Virus record (IMG/VR): IMGVR_UViG_3300047547_000123
Location: 1 to 27,267 of that record
Direction: 5' to 3' (one strand)
Origin: a virus
Length of the DNA: 27,267 bases
Of this stretch, positions 1 to 19,955 are shown in pieces; position 1 is the first letter of the stretch; each line of letters begins with the position of its first letter. Below the pieces are notes generated by a model. That model had not been told where the DNA came from, did no database searches, and saw only the letters and a list, made by a program, of their open reading frames with translations. Position numbers and translations under genes: made by a program.

Positions 1-412
1 CCAAATCTTTAGATATTTGTACGTTAGACCTATCGGGGTAGTTTATTAAGTATTTAGCTATTTTTACGTATACTTCCTCTGTGTACAAGGCATTATAATG
101 TGCTTCTCCAAAACCACCTCCTTCCCCCCCATTTGAGTTATTAAACCCATCAGTATACGCGTCAAATTCTTTAATCCAGCCTATTTCCTTCTTACCAAGC
201 ACTGTAGGGTCTGAAACAGTTAACTCCAGTATTTCAAATATAGGTAGGCTACCAGAAACATTATACGCGTGCTGTAACTTATGATTACTGTGGGTTCCAT
301 TTTTCAGCCTATTAAAGTGCTGGCTCTTCCTTAATTCTAGATTAATACTATACCCAACATAAAACTTATTAAAAATATTCTCAAAATACATTACATATAT
401 ACCACTTAGCAT
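1..412 (-). CDS. GIY-YIG homing endonuclease, N-terminal part (runs off the window)
   Basis: Reading the minus strand from ATG at 412 gives about 137 codons open to the window edge. The protein begins MLSGIYVMYFENIFNKFYVG, which carries the GIY and YVG halves of the GIY-YIG nuclease core, followed by a segment with conserved-looking Arg and His (LRKSQHFNRLKNGTHSNHKL) and a glycine-rich stretch (NGGEGGGFGE). This is typical of free-standing phage homing endonucleases, which cut intronless or empty alleles and promote their own spread. A good ribosome site (GGAGA, 5 bases before ATG) and a strong promoter precede it. The C-terminal DNA-binding part lies outside the window. The family call is secure; the target is unknown. 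Confidence 0.85.
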   Translation of the reverse strand, partial: MLSGIYVMYFENIFNKFYVGYSINLELRKSQHFNRLKNGTHSNHKLQHAYNVSGSLPIFEILELTVSDPTVLGKKEIGWIKEFDAYTDGFNNSNGGEGGGFGEAHYNALYTEEVYVKIAKYLINYPDRSNVQISKDL

Positions 413-443
413 ATCGTTCTCCTTTTTTTCTAATGCTGTACTA

Positions 444-472
444 ATTATACAGTAAGTATAAAATTTTTTCAA
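444..472 (-). promoter_or_regulatory. sigma70 promoter for the GIY-YIG gene
   Basis: On the minus strand TTGAAA (467-472) and a perfect TATAAT (444-449) are separated by 17 bases. An AAAATTTTA block lies just upstream of the -35, as at most other promoters in this window. It points at the GIY-YIG gene starting at 412. Confidence 0.75.
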
Positions 473-970: not shown

Positions 971-1885
971 TTAAATAATTTCGCAACCATTAGCAGAACA
1001 CGCTAGTGTTTGCGTTCCTTCCACGTTATCAGTATCTTCCACAATGGAATCCCAGTCTAAATTAGCAGGGATTTGCTTGCTAAGTTCTAGGTACTGCTCT
1101 TCCGTACATTCTTCGTACGGGGCCTGACGGTACGAACCGCCGTCATAGGGCAGGAACGATACACCAGACATTTCATCAAAATGCTCCCATACAAATGCAC
1201 CTACAGCAGGCCACTCTTTTTCAGAAACAGAAATAGTGACTGAGGGTTTATGTTCACAATAGAAGCGCTGGTAGGCCAACCACAGTTTCAAATGCTGAAT
1301 AGCTGTAATATCCGCACGAGTAAGTGCCCCTTCTGGAGCCTTCTTAGGGAAGGTAAATACTACTGTGGTATCAGGTTTCATCACGCAAGGCTCGTTAGGT
1401 ACTCCACGCGAGATCATAAACTGGGTAAGTGGATCTTTAACGTCACCACGTACACGGCGGTAGTAATATTTACTGTGCCGTGTGTGTAGTCCACTAGCGG
1501 AGTCTGTCAATTGTGATGTTGTACCTTCTGGCTTAATAGCGGTACAGGCTACACTAGCAGGCACTCCAATTAGTGTTGCTTCCAGTTTATTCATATCAAC
1601 AACTGCATCGCGAATATCCATCAGTCTATCACGTAACATAGGATCATCAGGATTATTAAGCAGTGGGTTATCTAAGGCCCCTGTCATTGATACGCCAAGT
1701 AAGCGTTCTTCTTCGGTGTTGTCTTTCCATACTTTACGCAGGTAAGGGAACTCAGTAAGTGTGGACTGCCAGGTACCCAGAATAGCAGCAAGTTGTGCTT
1801 TGTAGATAAGTTGCTCTACCGTATCTTCTGCCCGTACAATTACTGTGGATAAATTACAGAATTGATATGGGCGGAGAATAATTTC
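971..1885 (-). CDS. class II (B12-dependent) ribonucleotide reductase, exon 2
   Basis: This is the C-terminal half of the reductase begun at 4227. The reading frame is open upstream of its first ATG (1687) to the intron end, and the protein there reads EIILRPYQFCNLSTVIVRAE, a segment diagnostic of adenosylcobalamin-dependent reductases. Later come the phosphate-binding PEGTTSQL stretch and SASGLHTRHSKYYYRRVRGD. The tail ends TLACSANGCEII, a Cys-x4-Cys pair likely to pass electrons from thioredoxin to the active site. Joined to exon 1 the enzyme has about 633 residues. Exon 2 begins with GAA (Glu), which supplies the catalytic glutamate and puts the partner cysteine 11 residues after the radical cysteine, the spacing I recall for the Lactobacillus enzyme (Cys408/Cys419). 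Confidence 0.9.
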   Translation of the reverse strand, partial: EIILRPYQFCNLSTVIVRAEDTVEQLIYKAQLAAILGTWQSTLTEFPYLRKVWKDNTEEERLLGVSMTGALDNPLLNNPDDPMLRDRLMDIRDAVVDMNKLEATLIGVPASVACTAIKPEGTTSQLTDSASGLHTRHSKYYYRRVRGDVKDPLTQFMISRGVPNEPCVMKPDTTVVFTFPKKAPEGALTRADITAIQHLKLWLAYQRFYCEHKPSVTISVSEKEWPAVGAFVWEHFDEMSGVSFLPYDGGSYRQAPYEECTEEQYLELSKQIPANLDWDSIVEDTDNVEGTQTLACSANGCEII

Positions 1886-3240
1886 CTTAGCAGGGTTGTT
1901 TACGCCCTACTTTTCGACTATATCATAATATTGGCTTTATACTGCATACTAGCAGGTATAATATCAATATATGGCTTTACAAATGTGTTAATGAATTTAA
2001 TAATTTCTACCTGCTGTGCTATCTGGCATGTTTTATCATACGAGATAGAGTGGATGTTGTAGGTAGATAGGTACTCAGTCAAGTCCTGATGAACGTCTTT
2101 GGTAGTACCTTGACAGATACCAATACTTTTAGTATCTTTCCAAAAGAGGCAACCATCGTCTAGAAATAACCATAACATGCCCAAGGGGGTTAGCGCATTC
2201 ACCATTTCTTTATGGGTAAAGCTCTCAATTTTATTGGTAACATGTTCAGGTAGCTTGCCAGAGTACCACGTACAGTACTCATGACCTTGTGCGTGTACAT
2301 GTACTTTAATTTTTTCGATACCATACAGTGCAGGATACGCATTCTTTAGCATGCTTACCTTCCAACGAAGGTACTCTAGCTGTTTAATGCCGTGAGTAAT
2401 TCGTAATACCTTACGTACACTGTCATAACTACCATCGCCTAACACTTGCGAGAATACCAGAGCCTCATTATCCGACGTACAAGGGCTAATTCTTGGAATT
2501 TTGATTTTATTAAGGCAACTAGCTTTAGCTTGTACAAAGTTAGCCACGCCTAATTCCCTATCAAAGAAGCCAGGGCGTGTAGCTGCGTCAGTACCAAGCA
2601 GCTGCCAGAAATCTGACACAGTTTCTGATCTAATCAAGGCTTCTTGGATCTCTGACTCCGTAGGCTTGAAGTATTCAGACAGTGACATTTGACAAAGACT
2701 GCGTACTCTACGTACTAACTCCATTTCGCTGACACTAAATTCTTTAGTCAAAGTATCCTTAGCTTGCTGAAATGTACTACCTACTGCGCGTAGCTCTTTA
2801 ATACGCGTGTACATATCTTTAGTATCTACAAGATTGAGTTTTGGTACTAATTCTTTCCAAGTATCTGGGTACGCAAACCGCAATTTAAGCATTTTTGAAA
2901 TACTAATGCCGAGCAATCTTTCAGCAAGCCGTGTAGCTGTATGCTTTCCTGAAAGATTAAATTCTTCTACCAAAGTAGTACCAACACCGTCTCTTTGAGT
3001 TCTAGAGTGTTCCACCAACTCTATAACTCTATTCATAAATTTGTTTTCATCCATATATTTTCTCCAAAACTTTTCGTCTTTAGTCTGTGAACCTTCACCA
3101 GTTAAGGTGCTTGGCTGCTGATTACCCAACGTTCTCTATTCTTAAGCATTCACACTCACCGTTTCCAGTCATGTTGTAGCTAGGAACTTTAACAGGCTTC
3201 CAGCAATTTACGAAATTTTTAACGTGATCCTACTATCTCA
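1886..3240 (-). ncRNA. group I self-splicing intron in the reductase gene
   Basis: A 1,355-base insertion splits the reductase. On the minus strand the core elements are visible: P1 (exon GUGUUCU with intron GGAUCAC, final U.G at the splice site), P3 (UUUCGU 3215-3210 with ACGAAA 3077-3072), P4 (UUGCUGG with UCAGCAGC), P5 (GGAA/UUCC), a P6 hairpin CACC/GGUG, the R element GGUUCACAGACUAAA, the S element AUGAUAUAGUC (P7: GACUA 3085-3081 with UAGUC 1920-1916), a probable P8 (3071-3064 with 1934-1927) and a 6-bp P9 hairpin. The intron ends in G at 1886. The first three intron bases are TGA, which stops exon 1 translation in unspliced RNA. Splicing restores Asn-Pro-Cys-Ser-Glu. The ORF sits in the P8 loop. 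Confidence 0.9.
1918..3054 (-). CDS. LAGLIDADG-type intron-encoded homing endonuclease
   Basis: A 378-residue protein inside the intron. Two LAGLIDADG-like helices are visible, ALVFSQVLGDGSY (about 198-210) and PLGMLWLFLDDGC (about 290-302), each with acidic residues at the end as needed for metal-dependent cleavage. The N-terminal ~170 residues are helical and charged and look like helix-turn-helix DNA-binding modules. I chose ATG 3054 because GGAGA lies six bases upstream. The longer TTG reading from 3129 would run through the ribozyme P6-P7 core. The stop codon lies within the 3' strand of P7, so the gene nearly fills the intron. It should cut intronless reductase alleles to spread the intron. 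Confidence 0.85.
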   Translation of the reverse strand: MDENKFMNRVIELVEHSRTQRDGVGTTLVEEFNLSGKHTATRLAERLLGISISKMLKLRFAYPDTWKELVPKLNLVDTKDMYTRIKELRAVGSTFQQAKDTLTKEFSVSEMELVRRVRSLCQMSLSEYFKPTESEIQEALIRSETVSDFWQLLGTDAATRPGFFDRELGVANFVQAKASCLNKIKIPRISPCTSDNEALVFSQVLGDGSYDSVRKVLRITHGIKQLEYLRWKVSMLKNAYPALYGIEKIKVHVHAQGHEYCTWYSGKLPEHVTNKIESFTHKEMVNALTPLGMLWLFLDDGCLFWKDTKSIGICQGTTKDVHQDLTEYLSTYNIHSISYDKTCQIAQQVEIIKFINTFVKPYIDIIPASMQYKANIMI

Positions 3241-4227
3241 AGAACACGGGTTAGTGCCGTAATCATAGTCTGCATTACGTCTACCATTTTTCTTTGCAAT
3301 CTTTTGAGCTGCTTCGCGGTTAAAGATACCACGCTCACCACTTTTAGATTCATAGAGGCTTAGCCACTCTTGCATAAAAATACCTACTTCAGGTTTTTCC
3401 GTATAGCAGGCACTATTATTAGCTAAAGCACGCTGTCCGTTTTGCTCCCACCATGCGCCACTTTTAGCGTGCCGCATACGGTCGTCGCTGAGGTTCGATA
3501 GGCTAATCATAGCACTACGTCGTACCCCTCCGACAACAACCACTTCGCCGATCTTGCACATAATATCGTGACATTCTAGCGATGTTAGCTTACGTCCTGT
3601 AGCTCCTTTAAAGATTTTAATAACGAATCTGAACAGGTCTTCCAAAGGTCCAGGACCGCTAGCACGACCTCCGAAGGTCTTTAGTCTGGCTCCTGCGGGA
3701 CGTACTTTACTAACATCCCATAGCGGTTGTTCGCCGCTATATAGCAAGGCAATCATCTGTCTCAAACTTTTAGCCCAACCTTCTTTACTATCATGAACTA
3801 CAATAGTCGTATCGCTTGCAAAGATGCGATCAGGTACTTCTGGCAGTTTTGACACATACTGTCGCTCCACTGAAAAACCCACCCCTGTTCCGCACAGCAG
3901 AATAAACATAGCCTCGTCGAAAGCTTTTGGGTCGTCTACCGGTAGGTAACTACAATTGTATCCAGCTGTATTGTCCCTTGCCAAAGCATCTCCGGCTGTC
4001 ATAATAGCTCGCATACTTGGTAACACTTCTTTATTTACCATAGCTTCGCGGATATTATCGTATGTTTCCTGGTCAATATCATAACTATGCTTGTCGGCCA
4101 GATGACCTTGCATAAACTCTAGGTAGCGGTCTACACTCTCCTCCCAGTTTTCTCTACGATTTTCTTCTTGAAGGTACCGCGCGTACCGTGATTTTGCAAT
4201 AAATTCTTCGTAAACTGTATCAATCAT
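3241..4227 (-). CDS. class II (B12-dependent) ribonucleotide reductase, exon 1
   Basis: The first 329 residues of a reductase that makes deoxyribonucleotides for phage DNA synthesis with adenosylcobalamin as radical source. Visible are AGYNCSYLPVDD with the first redox cysteine (about Cys92), LLCGTGVGFSVERQ, GGVRRSAMISLSNL and the terminal GTNPCS, where Asn326 and Cys328 are the expected catalytic Asn and thiyl-radical Cys. Ser329 is the last exon codon; the following TGA belongs to the intron. The start overlaps the previous gene as ATGA. No class I small subunit is seen nearby, in line with a class II enzyme that needs no separate radical protein. Confidence 0.92.
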
Positions 4228-4439
4228 TTAATTCCTTTAGTTTGAAGACGTGATTCGCACACGCCAAAAATCGCCTGTAGTTTAAATTCTAGTTGGTCAT
4301 TAACATCTACTAAATAACTTGTATATGTTTCAAGGTCTTTAATGCTAATAACGCCCTTGCTGTAGTAATACTCCAGCAGCTTCGCACTAGCCTGTCTTGA
4401 TTGTGCGACTGCCTCTAAAATATCTGATGCTACACTCAT
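4224..4439 (-). CDS. hypothetical protein, 71 aa
   Basis: A small, largely helical protein (MSVASDILEAVAQSRQASAK) with a Tyr-rich stretch LEYYYSKGV and no motif I recognise. It is tightly coupled to both neighbours: its ATG shares a base with the dUTPase stop (TAATG) and its TGA overlaps the reductase start (ATGA). This points to co-translation with nucleotide-metabolism genes. Its function cannot be told from sequence; an accessory role for the reductase or dUTPase is only a guess from position. Confidence 0.75.
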   Translation of the reverse strand: MSVASDILEAVAQSRQASAKLLEYYYSKGVISIKDLETYTSYLVDVNDQLEFKLQAIFGVCESRLQTKGIK

Positions 4440-4882
4440 TAACCTGTACTCCCAAAACCATTAACCCCGCGCGCAGTATCGTTCCATGAGTCTACAAAAA
4501 CTGGTAGGTAAATAGGCACAATAGAAAGCTGCCCGATTCGTGTAATGTATTGTTGAATTACAAACCGATCGTCCCCTTGATTATGGATAAATACTTTCAA
4601 AGTGCCCCTATAAGCTGCGTCAATTATGCCCGTTCCGTGGCAAGTCAGACCCCTTACTCTCATTGAACTACGTGGGTCAATTAACCCACCATACCCTACT
4701 GGAATCTTTACAGCAATACCTGTGTCTACTAGAGCAGACCCGCCAGGTAGAATTTCTAGACTCTCAGCAGAGTAAAGATCTGCACCCATATCAGTAGGAT
4801 GGGCTCGCACAGGCAGTACCGCCTTAGGGTCTACCCGAAGGCATTGAATAGGGTAGTGCGGTATAGTATTACAACTGGACAT
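4439..4882 (-). CDS. dut: dUTP diphosphatase (trimeric dUTPase)
   Basis: A 147-residue enzyme that hydrolyses dUTP to dUMP and pyrophosphate, keeping uracil out of DNA and feeding thymidylate synthesis. All five motifs of the trimeric family are present in order: DMGADLYS (I), DPRSSMRVRGL (II), GIIDAAYRGTLKV (III, with the catalytic Asp and substrate-stacking Tyr), RIGQLSIVPI (IV) and RGVNGFGSTG (V, the flexible C-terminal lid). Length is normal. The start overlaps the end of the flap exonuclease gene by 14 bases. Motif III has Thr where Glu is usual after RG, a mild change. Confidence 0.95.
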   Translation of the reverse strand: MSSCNTIPHYPIQCLRVDPKAVLPVRAHPTDMGADLYSAESLEILPGGSALVDTGIAVKIPVGYGGLIDPRSSMRVRGLTCHGTGIIDAAYRGTLKVFIHNQGDDRFVIQQYITRIGQLSIVPIYLPVFVDSWNDTARGVNGFGSTG

Positions 4883-5720
4883 TTGTTAAAGTACTTTCAA
4901 TTTCTTTTAGATTATCTGGGCCAATAGCTTCATCGCAGAAACTAATTAGGTCCATTAGTTGGTAGTTCAATCTTAGTGCATCAGCGCCAAAATCGTTCAA
5001 GTTTTTAATATATACGTATTTACCAGGCAAAGGAAGCGCGTCTGCAATATCTAGCGTAGAGCCATATTCTCGCACTAACTTAAGTGCTGTCTTAGGCCCA
5101 ATTTTTAGTACACCTGGAACGTTATCACCGGCGTCACCTTGAAGACACTTTATACTAATATAGTCTTCTACGCGCCAGTCGTAGTGTTCATTATAATTAT
5201 CGTAAGTTACTTCTTTACGTGTTACGTAGGAAAAGCGACTAGTTTGTTCATTACAGAGCAAATCATAATCTTTATCGCTAGAAATTAACCAGATTTTATT
5301 TAATGAATATTTAGCACGATTATTAACTATGTGTGCTGCAATATCATCTGCTTCAACACCTTGGAATCTAAATACTGGATAGTTAGTATTTTCTCTATAG
5401 TACTCGATGATTTTAAGATACTCTGCAAAGAACTTTTCAAAGTATGCTTCGTCTTCTGGACTCTGCTCTTCTCTAAGCTTTTCTCTGTTGTACTTATACT
5501 CAGGATAGAGCTTTCTCCTATAAGAACTTTTACCCCAATCGCTAAGAATAATTACTTGCGTAGCTTTATAGGACTTTTTAAGGCTTTCTACTGTTTGAAC
5601 GTACTCATCAAGAAAAAAGAGTGCCTTCTTATGCTTAAATCTAAAGCAGAGATTTAAGCTATCTACTACTAGAACAGTTCCTTCGACACCTGCTGTTAGT
5701 GTGTTAAATGTTTTTGCCAT
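4869..5720 (-). CDS. 5'-3' exonuclease / flap endonuclease (T5 D15-like)
   Basis: A 283-residue structure-specific nuclease that removes 5' flaps and RNA primers. Metal-binding acidic motifs are visible in order: VVDSLNLCFRF, LSDWGKSSYRRKLYPEYK (helical arch with Arg/Lys), GVEADDIAAHI, SSDKDYDLL and LQGDAGDNVPGV, followed by the helix-hairpin-helix IGPKTALKLVREYG that grips DNA. A longer frame starts at 5780, but the promoter -10 is at 5752-5757, so that ATG would lie upstream of the transcript start. I therefore use ATG 5720 (MAKTFNTL). First gene of the operon that continues through dUTPase to the reductase. No clear Shine-Dalgarno. Confidence 0.93.
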   Translation of the reverse strand: MAKTFNTLTAGVEGTVLVVDSLNLCFRFKHKKALFFLDEYVQTVESLKKSYKATQVIILSDWGKSSYRRKLYPEYKYNREKLREEQSPEDEAYFEKFFAEYLKIIEYYRENTNYPVFRFQGVEADDIAAHIVNNRAKYSLNKIWLISSDKDYDLLCNEQTSRFSYVTRKEVTYDNYNEHYDWRVEDYISIKCLQGDAGDNVPGVLKIGPKTALKLVREYGSTLDIADALPLPGKYVYIKNLNDFGADALRLNYQLMDLISFCDEAIGPDNLKEIESTLTNVQL

Positions 5721-17225: not shown

Positions 17226-17978
17226 TTAAGCAGCAGCTTTTGCTTCTGCTTTTTCTTTCTTATCTTGACCTTTGTAGTCCGCACAGTTGATACCACGACG
17301 GGTCAACATAGTACGAACACCGCGGTCTGTCTTATCAGTTGCTGCAGCAATTTCTGCAACAGTCATGCCATTAATACGGTCGCCAAGTGCTGCAACTGCG
17401 TCTACCTGAGTGTTAGCATGGCTTTCGCGTTGAGCAGGAATTTTTGCAATCTGCTCTTTACGAACTAGGCTCAGAGCCTTACCACGAACGGAGGCAACTT
17501 CTTTACCCAAAGCCGTAGCGATTTCTTCAATAAAAGCACCTGTGTTGGCCATCTTTACGAAAGTAGCTTCTTCAACCTCAGAGTACTTACCAGCGACTTC
17601 AACTTTTTCTGTACGCTTAACGCTATCAGTCAGTTCCAGAGCCAGCAACTTACCTTGGATTTGTTTTGCCGTAAATTTGCCACCGTTAAAGTTCTCAGCA
17701 ATTTCACGATAGGTATATACTGAAGCATTTTCAGTAACAAAAGCAGCCAGAGCATTACCCTCATCTTCGCTAAAAGTAGGCTCTTTGGTTTTAGCCATTG
17801 AAGCAACAGTACGATTTAGTTGACGCAATTTAGCAGATACGGAACGGGTAGATTTGCCCAGAGTAGTAGCAGCTTGTTCTACAATATCTGCAGGAACGGG
17901 GGTAAGGTCGCCGATAATATCCATCAAGGTTGCAGTAGCTTCGTCAGACCAGTTCTTCAGTGCGGCTTTTTCAGTCAT
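17226..17978 (-). CDS. D5-like DNA-binding protein with four HTH/SANT-like repeats
   Basis: A 250-residue protein in the position of T5 D5, a DNA-binding early regulator. By eye it is built of four related three-helix units: residues 9-54 (NWSDEATATLMDIIGDL then GKSTRSVSAKLRQL), 69-115 (FSEDEGNALAAFV then FTAKQIQGKLLAL), 132-172 (YSEVEEATFVKM then EVASVRGKALSL) and 190-229 (MTVAEIAAATDKTDRGVRTM). Each has the Trp/Phe/Tyr-Ser-x-Glu/Asp opening or an I-A helix followed by a recognition-like helix. A Lys/Ala-rich tail ends the protein. It overlaps the ligase subunit stop by 8 bases and is followed by a strong terminator, which suggests high expression. Regulator or coating protein are both possible. 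Confidence 0.8.
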   Translation of the reverse strand: MTEKAALKNWSDEATATLMDIIGDLTPVPADIVEQAATTLGKSTRSVSAKLRQLNRTVASMAKTKEPTFSEDEGNALAAFVTENASVYTYREIAENFNGGKFTAKQIQGKLLALELTDSVKRTEKVEVAGKYSEVEEATFVKMANTGAFIEEIATALGKEVASVRGKALSLVRKEQIAKIPAQRESHANTQVDAVAALGDRINGMTVAEIAAATDKTDRGVRTMLTRRGINCADYKGQDKKEKAEAKAAA

Positions 17979-18735
17979 GTTTGTTTTCTTTCAAAAAATC
18001 TTTAAGATTTGTAATAATAGGAATGCCGAGTGCTTCGGCTTTTTTACGTTTGTCGCTGCCTTTATCACCCTCGTCCACTAGCAAATTAGTTGTTTTAGTT
18101 ACTGAATCTACTACTTTGTATCCAGCGGCTTGTAACGCTGTTGTGGCTTCTGCTTTGGTTTTAAAGGAAGCTAGTTTACCAGTAATGCAAATACTTTTAC
18201 CGTTATTTGCGCTAATGGCTTCTTTTCCAGAAGCTCGGAAGTCAAAGGGTAAAAACTCTCTTACTTCTTGGAACTCTGTTTCCAGCCAACTGATCAAATT
18301 GGCTGTGGCCTTATCGCCTAGACCTGCTGTTTTGCAGGCTTCGGGAGTAATATCGTCGATATGCTCGACTACTTGACACAGACGACCCGCTAAGGTCTGT
18401 CCGATCAACGGGATTGAAAATGCAGCAATTACTTTGTCTAGTGAGGCAGATCGGCTTTGTTCAATTTCAATGAGTAGTTTTTCCGCCATACGCTCACTGC
18501 CCAACGCAGCTGCTACATCTTCAAATTCTAGAAAATAAATCTCTGGGATGGAATCAAGAGCCAGCTTGTCAACCGTCTTAGGCCCGAACCCTTTAATACC
18601 TAGAGTTTTGGTAAAGTGCTCAACCTTTTTGTAAAGTTGAGCAGGGCAGCTAGTGTCTACGCAAAATAGCTGGTCATTTTTCATGACCAAAGTAGACGCG
18701 CAGCAGGGGCATTTATCGGGTATGATGATTTTCAT
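17971..18735 (-). CDS. NAD-dependent DNA ligase, C-terminal subunit (Zn finger, HhH, BRCT)
   Basis: A 254-residue protein equal to the C-terminal third of bacterial LigA. A Cys4 zinc finger at the start (Cys9, Cys12, Cys25, Cys30, ending SCPAQLYKK) is followed by helix-hairpin-helix repeats (GIKGFGPKTVDKLAL, FSIPLIGQTLAGRL, GLGDKATANLIS) and a BRCT domain from about residue 170 (GKSICITGKLASF, then TTNLLVDEGDKGSDKRKKAE). It binds DNA but lacks the adenylation site, which is in the separate gene at 18993-19955. T5 also has a two-part ligase, as I recall. It has its own promoter and precedes the D5-like gene. Confidence 0.92.
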   Translation of the reverse strand: MKIIIPDKCPCCASTLVMKNDQLFCVDTSCPAQLYKKVEHFTKTLGIKGFGPKTVDKLALDSIPEIYFLEFEDVAAALGSERMAEKLLIEIEQSRSASLDKVIAAFSIPLIGQTLAGRLCQVVEHIDDITPEACKTAGLGDKATANLISWLETEFQEVREFLPFDFRASGKEAISANNGKSICITGKLASFKTKAEATTALQAAGYKVVDSVTKTTNLLVDEGDKGSDKRKKAEALGIPIITNLKDFLKENKHD

Positions 18736-18992: not shown

Positions 18993-19955
18993 TTAAGCGT
19001 TCACTTTGTATAATATCTTAGGAATTATTTCCCCGCTACGAATGACCGCAACAGTATCACCAATCTCGATTCCAAGCATCTCAATAAAACCTGGATTGTT
19101 GAGGGTAGCACGACTTACTAGAGCATCACCAATCATCACAGGTTCTAGAATAGCTACTGGAGATACGCGACCAGTTTTGCCAACCCCCCACTCAACGTCC
19201 AGAATTACTGTCTCTACTGCTTCTTGTCGTTCTTTCAATGCAAACGCAGCCCTCGGGTGTTTACCAGTGTACCCAAGATTAACGAAAGAAGCATTATGCA
19301 CAATACGATGAACTACGCCATCACAAGGATAAATCTTATTAATCTCTGGTTCAAATACTGTTTTAAAGCCCCAAGACTCTAATGCAGCCATATCGTCGTC
19401 GAACGTACTAGTAATGTAAGGCTGTACACCATAAGCAAAGAACTCGATAGCTCTAGTGCGGAACTCGTCAGTATCTTTCAAGTTCAAAGCCCCAGCAGCA
19501 TAGTTTCTAGCGTTTTCAATGTGCTTTGGAGCTACAATCTCGCCAGTAATTTGATATGCCCCCTTTACTGGTACAGTATGAGGAATCAAGGAGTTAGTAG
19601 ATAGAAACTTATCTGTAACATCCTGTCCCTCAATGCCGTCACCACGCGTTGCTACCTGTACTAGCTTGCCATCAATATACGTGATAGAAATAGCGGCACC
19701 ATCCAGCTTTGGAGTCATAGCTACGGCCCCGCTTACATTAGCTAGCGGATGCGCACCTTCGTCTTCGTAGTGCTTCTGAAGCGAGTACATTTGGAAGAGA
19801 TGCCTAACTTTCCCTGCGCTAACAGTAGCGCCCACTTTATTATAACCAACAAGATCAGCGAGGCGATCAAAGGTAGCGTCATCAAGAATAGGAGAACCTG
19901 CATAATACGCATCACTGCACCGATCAAGATAGTTTGAAACTTGTTGTTTATTCAT
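18993..19955 (-). CDS. NAD-dependent DNA ligase, N-terminal subunit (adenylation and OB domains)
   Basis: A 320-residue catalytic subunit that seals nicks using NAD. Domain Ia is present (NYLDRCSDAYYAGSPILDD), which confers NAD use. The adenylation site is TPKLDGAAIS with Lys83, followed by TRGDGIEGQDVT, TGEIVAP, DGVVHRI and AFALKERQE. An OB fold ends the protein (WGVGKTGRVSPVAILEPV, SRATLNNPGFI). Zinc, HhH and BRCT parts are supplied by the gene at 17971-18735. The start codon overlaps the preceding small gene. Together the two subunits make about 574 residues, somewhat short of bacterial LigA. Confidence 0.94.
   Translation of the reverse strand: MNKQQVSNYLDRCSDAYYAGSPILDDATFDRLADLVGYNKVGATVSAGKVRHLFQMYSLQKHYEDEGAHPLANVSGAVAMTPKLDGAAISITYIDGKLVQVATRGDGIEGQDVTDKFLSTNSLIPHTVPVKGAYQITGEIVAPKHIENARNYAAGALNLKDTDEFRTRAIEFFAYGVQPYITSTFDDDMAALESWGFKTVFEPEINKIYPCDGVVHRIVHNASFVNLGYTGKHPRAAFALKERQEAVETVILDVEWGVGKTGRVSPVAILEPVMIGDALVSRATLNNPGFIEMLGIEIGDTVAVIRSGEIIPKILYKVNA

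Follow-up and report, generated by a model that had tools for sequence, protein, structure and literature searches.

The window, meaning the whole stretch of DNA analysed, is 27,267 bases long and represents the entire IMG/VR record of a phage, possibly a genome fragment. Its replication genes specify a family A DNA polymerase, a primase, a DnaB-like helicase and an SbcD-like nuclease, and it also encodes a two-part NAD ligase, a dUTPase and tRNAs. The two parts of the NAD-dependent DNA ligase are nearby genes (17971-18735 and 18993-19955, minus strand), one with the adenylation and OB domains and the other with the zinc-finger/BRCT part, and a small ORF lies in between. At the edge of the record (2-472, minus strand) there is a partial GIY-YIG homing endonuclease gene, above cutoff in Pfam and assigned by PHROG to the homing endonucleases, such that, with the LAGLIDADG gene described below counted in, the endonuclease genes of the phage number at least two and come from different families. 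The locus of principal interest is a reductase gene in two exons, arranged as follows:

3241-4227, minus strand: reductase exon 1 (class II, RTPR-type; TIGR02505, E 6.9e-49; RNR-II_ins_dom, E 9e-9)
1886-3240, minus strand: group I intron of 1355 nt, UGAGAU...CUAAG (RF00028; independent covariance model; same intron in L084)
1918-3054, minus strand: LAGLIDADG homing endonuclease gene, in the P8 loop of the intron (Pfam LAGLIDADG_2, E 3.7e-7; PHROG 11023)
971-1885, minus strand: reductase exon 2, starting GAA ATT (EIILRPYQFCN), stop codon included (TIGR02505, E 2.9e-26)

The C-terminus of exon 1 is GTNPCS, after which, as the original prediction had it, the frame meets a TGA at 3240-3238. Exon 2 begins at 1885 (GAA ATT ATT), directly after the G at 1886, in a frame that differs from that of exon 1. 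Joining 3241 to 1885 gives a single open frame of 633 amino acids that reads GTNPCS/EIILRPYQFC (here and below a slash marks the point of insertion), the motif in the joined protein being NPCSEIILRPYQFC, with the second Cys at +11 from the radical Cys. A second Cys 11 residues past the radical Cys is the spacing of class II enzymes. Moreover, both exons match the NCBIfam model of the adenosylcobalamin-dependent ribonucleoside-triphosphate reductase (TIGR02505), each half scoring, as is expected of halves, below the full-length cutoff, and exon 1 contains the B12-reductase insertion domain known to Pfam. The spliced product aligns with the RTPR of L. leichmannii (PDB 1L1L, E 7e-47) through the NPC-x-E motif. 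In other words, the joined protein has the NPCxE motif, the Cys at +11, the insertion domain and the L. leichmannii similarity of a class II RTPR-type enzyme, and the proposal that an intron splits the catalytic Asn-Pro-Cys-x-Glu of a class II (B12) reductase is supported by the TIGR02505 match, the 1L1L alignment and the joined frame.

The choice of junctions merits some attention, as the 3' junction had been placed before GAA, giving NPCSE and a Cys 11 residues on, and alternatives had been said to add a Lys and break the spacing. Both statements are borne out: among 15 enumerated frame-keeping pairs that obey the rules of U at the 5' junction and G at the 3' junction, 3241/1885 is the only one to restore NPCxE together with the Cys at +11, and other pairs give NPCSKE and NPCSSKE products. 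All the intron-less relatives checked (78/78) encode NPC-x-E-I, with zero extra residues. Furthermore, a U before the 5' junction, a G as the last intron base and a GAAAT start of exon 2 are common to all six homologous introns (NNU/GAAAT), from which the 5' junction draws support through the P1 U.G pair at position -1, and the 3' junction through the terminal G. It had also been argued that reductase activity is tied to splicing. Since exon 1 alone is without the catalytic Glu and the entire C-terminal half, this follows necessarily from how the gene is built, but it is not evidence of regulated splicing. The original prediction was silent on the intron's LAGLIDADG gene, on the use of exactly the same site in crAss phages and others, and on the inteins at the neighbouring codon, all of which are treated below.

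The claim of a group I intron was put to covariance search. The Rfam group I model RF00028 matches at 3262-2965 (minus strand) with 40.3 bits (E 2.1e-8), which falls below its gathering score of 50; at the gathering threshold there are zero intron matches in the window, and the match is recovered in E-value mode only, such that a default Rfam scan would miss this intron. Because of this low score an independent covariance model was built, for which four homologous introns were taken from other phages and window-type sequences were left out. Its score is 84.5 bits (E 2.3e-21) for the window intron, matched at 3217-3068, and 77.9 bits for the intron of L002, a relative of the window; outside the intron family, no match exceeds 35 bits across 1.25 Mb of related reductase loci. 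The first covariance model (R1), which had a poor automatic structure and was superseded by R2, also matches the window strongly. A match of the core pattern search in a further locus (L090) lies outside any reductase and is spurious. The elements of the fold are as follows:

3241-3247, minus strand: P1 5' strand GUGUUCU, exonic, its final U at the 5' splice site; pairs with GGAUCAC
3224-3230, minus strand: internal guide sequence GGAUCAC (P1 3' strand); P1 tracks exon changes in other introns
3210-3215, minus strand: P3 5' strand UUUCGU; pairs with 3077-3072
3116-3205, minus strand: P4-P5-P5a domain (P4 UGCUGG/UCAGCA, P5a GUUC/GAAC); recovered by RNAalifold
3081-3085, minus strand: P7 5' strand GACUA, conserved core motif; pairs with 1920-1916
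3072-3077, minus strand: P3 3' strand ACGAAA; pairs with the P3 5' strand
3064-3071, minus strand: P8 5' strand AGUUUUGG; 7 of 8 positions paired with 1934-1927
1916-1920, minus strand: P7 3' strand UAGUC within GAUAUAGUC; pairs with GACUA
1890-1910, minus strand: P9 hairpin GUAGGG...CCCUGC
1886, minus strand: terminal intron G before the 3' splice site; G in 6/6 homologous introns

All the expected helices (P1, P3, P4, P5a, P6a, P7, P8 and P9) are thus located in the window intron, P1 having, besides its U.G pair at the junction, a single U-U mismatch. Six distinct homologous introns were compared (window, L084, L086, L087, L093 and L094), and in P1, P3, P5a, P6a, P8 and P9 pairing is kept despite sequence change between them; P3, for example, occurs as UUUCGU/ACGAAA, UUUUGU/ACAAAA, AUUACG/CGUAAU and CUAUGC/GCAUAG. 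With the alignment as its only input, RNAalifold recovers P4 to P9 with 22 compensatory pairs, while P3, which forms a pseudoknot with P7 and stands outside the RNAalifold fold, was assessed by hand. The insert therefore has the conserved catalytic core of a group I intron (P3-P8, with the guanosine site in P7), the U.G pair in P1 and the terminal G. P10 is weak in window-type introns and plausible in crAss-type introns.

The gene within the intron encodes 378 amino acids from the ATG at 3054, in a frame open from 3135. Its LAGLIDADG_2 match exceeds the Pfam cutoff, and its predicted structure (mean pLDDT 83) resembles I-WcaI, I-SceI and I-DmoI, with the bI3 maturase also among the fold matches; its motifs and predicted fold are accordingly those of a LAGLIDADG homing endonuclease. 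A profile search of genome contigs gave no cellular relative. The stop codon TAG of the gene sits within the P7 3' strand, and a GGAG ribosome-binding-like stretch (3065-3062, 7 nt upstream of the ATG) overlaps P8, by which intron folding may mask the ribosome-binding site.

The intron is patchily distributed. Of 80 close relatives, all but two (78) are free of interruptions; the same intron is present in one of the two and an intein in the other. The window's intron is carried by L084/L083, two assemblies of one sequence (identical over 4434 bases and counted once), with an endonuclease 69% identical to that of the window. Further afield, a homologous endonuclease occurs in four Bacteroides phages (PhiCrAssBcn14, 15, 16 and 18) and in cr108_1, and in the PhiCrAssBcn18 and cr108_1 loci its position is NPCG/E of a B12-dependent reductase that was deposited as a pair of genes. 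Homologues are also found at NPCC/E in a 149-kb phage contig (L093) and at NPCA/E in L094/L095. Indeed, every endonuclease relative whose site was examined (window, L084, L086, L087, L093, L094) is at NPCx/E of a class II reductase. The crAss enzyme belongs to the NrdJ_Z subclass (TIGR02504) and is 20% identical to the window enzyme, and the crAss and window endonucleases are ca 33% identical (range 29-34%); across lineages, the endonucleases are 30-43% identical and their host reductases 17-36%. Endonucleases are not usually better conserved than essential enzymes. That they are more alike here than their host reductases makes horizontal movement of the intron and its endonuclease, at a fixed reductase site, the simplest reading of the sequences. 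Two observations in the crAss group may be added: the PhiCrAssBcn18 intron endonuclease (L086, 1989-2927) is annotated as 'DNA polymerase III subunit gamma/tau', apparently in error, and in a crAss relative (L098, about 1298-3401) the break in the B12-dependent reductase falls at another place in exon 1, where the intron model gives two weak matches.

Evidence of homing comes from a crAss pair, one with the intron (L086) and one intron-less (L096), which differ at 58 of 2561 gene positions. These differences are concentrated at the insertion site, with 25 in the 240 positions up to 120 nt from it against 33 in the 2321 elsewhere (Fisher 6e-12); the densest 240-nt window of differences spans the site, and none of 2000 shuffles was equally dense. 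This exon-flank pattern is a clear tract of the co-conversion that is expected from double-strand-break repair. In a second pair (L094 and L183) co-conversion is marginal (p 0.02) and not convincing, and in the L184/L186 pair it is absent. For the window itself, the closest relative lacking the intron has no more than 78% identity. At the level of sequence, then, the comparisons show the intron junctions, the fold, the endonuclease family, the identical site, the patchy presence, the horizontal spread and one co-conversion tract.

Very probably, therefore, a mobile group I intron with a LAGLIDADG gene splits a class II RTPR-type reductase between x and Glu of Asn-Pro-Cys-x-Glu. The intron RNA would fold into P1-P9, guanosine would attack after U3241 in P1, and the freed exon 1 would in turn attack after G1886, such that the joined mRNA would encode the full reductase. 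The endonuclease, for its part, would cut intron-less reductase genes at a nearly invariant coding sequence, and repair would copy the intron in. The target would be active-site code that reductases cannot freely change, and it is this constraint that would have let one intron and endonuclease lineage enter at least four distant class II reductase lineages at the same boundary.

An intron that is real but no longer mobile, its endonuclease now inactive or acting only as a maturase, is an unlikely alternative. LAGLIDADG proteins can act as maturases (PMC3984707), the bI3 maturase is among the fold matches, as noted, and the collection has just one further window-type copy; yet the acidic residues of both LAGLIDADG motifs (LGDGS and DDG) are retained in every copy, and the identical site in unrelated reductases, together with the co-conversion tract, points to homing in the family. 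A decayed or truly split reductase, that is, a pseudogene or two proteins, the halves being separated by a free-standing endonuclease in the manner of nrdA of Aeh1, has a very small probability. Such an arrangement is suggested by the immediate stop after exon 1 and by the homing endonuclease between the halves, and RNR genes split by free-standing endonucleases are known (PMC3653736). Here, however, a full group I core, its helices covarying and its ends in keeping with the splice rules, flanks the endonuclease, the predicted junction restores the intron-less protein exactly, and the exons of the intron-containing reductases are open and well conserved (80% and 73% identity to L002). A mobile group I intron accordingly remains the preferred reading.

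The site is also used by other elements. In 240 reductase loci of three families, 233 cross it uninterrupted as a single aligned segment; of the seven others, five have large clean interruptions, every one of them on the NPCx motif, and two have an in-frame length difference (L025) and a frameshift near residue 130 (L185). The five are:

L002: intron on the NPCx motif
L181/L182: intron on the NPCx motif, in two records that are one sequence over the part compared
L011, about 3770-4997: intein at NPC/S
L166, about 2032-2964: intein at NPC/C, with an HNH-like stretch inside

Between its ends, the L011 intein appears to have an interrupted frame, perhaps through an internal intron or frameshift. 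That the window insert is itself an intein can be dismissed with near certainty, for while true inteins lie one codon upstream (NPC/S, NPC/C), the insert, read on in the frame of exon 1, begins with a stop codon, exon 2 is in another frame, splicing-domain ends are absent and an RNA fold is present.

In Roseobacter phage CRP-118 (L082, 1453-1624; OR420741), whose reductase is deposited as two genes, a 172-nt ORF-less group I-like insert divides the radical Cys codon (NP-T/GC-SE). It is very short for a group I intron and has no match to the generic Rfam group I model; a full-length P1 pairing, P3 and P7 are present. The inteins and this mini-intron fall within 5 nt on the same NPCx motif. Ten codons downstream of the NPCxE site, directly after the redox Cys (QFC/NLS), the reductase of Rhizobium phage RHph_N3_13 is interrupted by a group I intron of 703 nt (L081, 2009-2711; MN988507; 83.6 bits), the ORF of which is annotated as a sigma-factor decoy. 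The emerging picture is that a single intron-endonuclease lineage, specialised on class II active-site code, has probably crossed between RTPR and NrdJ_Z enzymes and between the phages of unrelated hosts, in a region which, shared with inteins and an independent mini-intron, is likely to be a contested landing site.

The case illustrates how homing elements secure a lasting target. Because the few codons flanking the radical cysteine are not free to drift, an endonuclease that recognises them is able to pass between enzymes with only ca 20% identity. It also corrects the annotation of intron-split reductases that were deposited as two partial genes. Moreover, as there are cultured phages with a homologous intron and others, closely related, that are intron-less, cross-subclass homing and competition with inteins are directly testable.

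Among phage genes, those for RNR are the ones best known to harbour group I introns, and such introns as a rule sit at conserved codons (PMC3653736, PMC3984707, PMC2814812, PMC8772380). The reviewed examples are T4 nrdB and nrdD, Twort nrdE and SPbeta bnrdE/bnrdF (PMC3653736, PMC3984707), which the window element, with its predicted splicing, resembles in being of the self-splicing group I type, some members of which have endonuclease genes, and in lying at conserved functional codons. Those introns, however, interrupt class I or III genes and have mainly HNH or GIY-YIG endonucleases, whereas here the gene is class II and the endonuclease LAGLIDADG; in addition, the window's J7/3 is, in our reading, too short for the P7.1/P7.2 of the usual phage IA type. 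A 2013 survey lists two split nrdJ genes, in phiYS40 and P60, neither with a group I intron (PMC3653736); these are likewise class II genes in two pieces, but with a 12-nt gap or a 334-nt overlap. CrAss-like phages are rich in introns and inteins (PMC7886860), and the words intron, intein and split are absent from the main text of the PhiCrAssBcn isolate paper (PMC10354031). No earlier description of a site-specific intron family at NPCx/E was found among the open-access papers searched. Close counterparts are the crAss introns (PhiCrAssBcn14-16 and 18, cr108_1), which share with the window a homologous core and endonuclease and, in PhiCrAssBcn18 and cr108_1, where it was examined, the identical NPCx/E site; they differ in that their endonuclease is without the N-terminal extension of ca 75 residues and their host reductase is NrdJ_Z. 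The L011 and L166 inteins are also mobile, lie 3 nt away on the same active-site motif and leave an intact-looking host gene, but they are unrelated elements that use protein splicing where the window element uses predicted RNA splicing. The window element thus belongs to a known kind, that of mobile group I introns within phage RNR genes. Its interest lies in the shared and contested site, which shows with unusual clarity one element at the same active-site code across enzyme subclasses.
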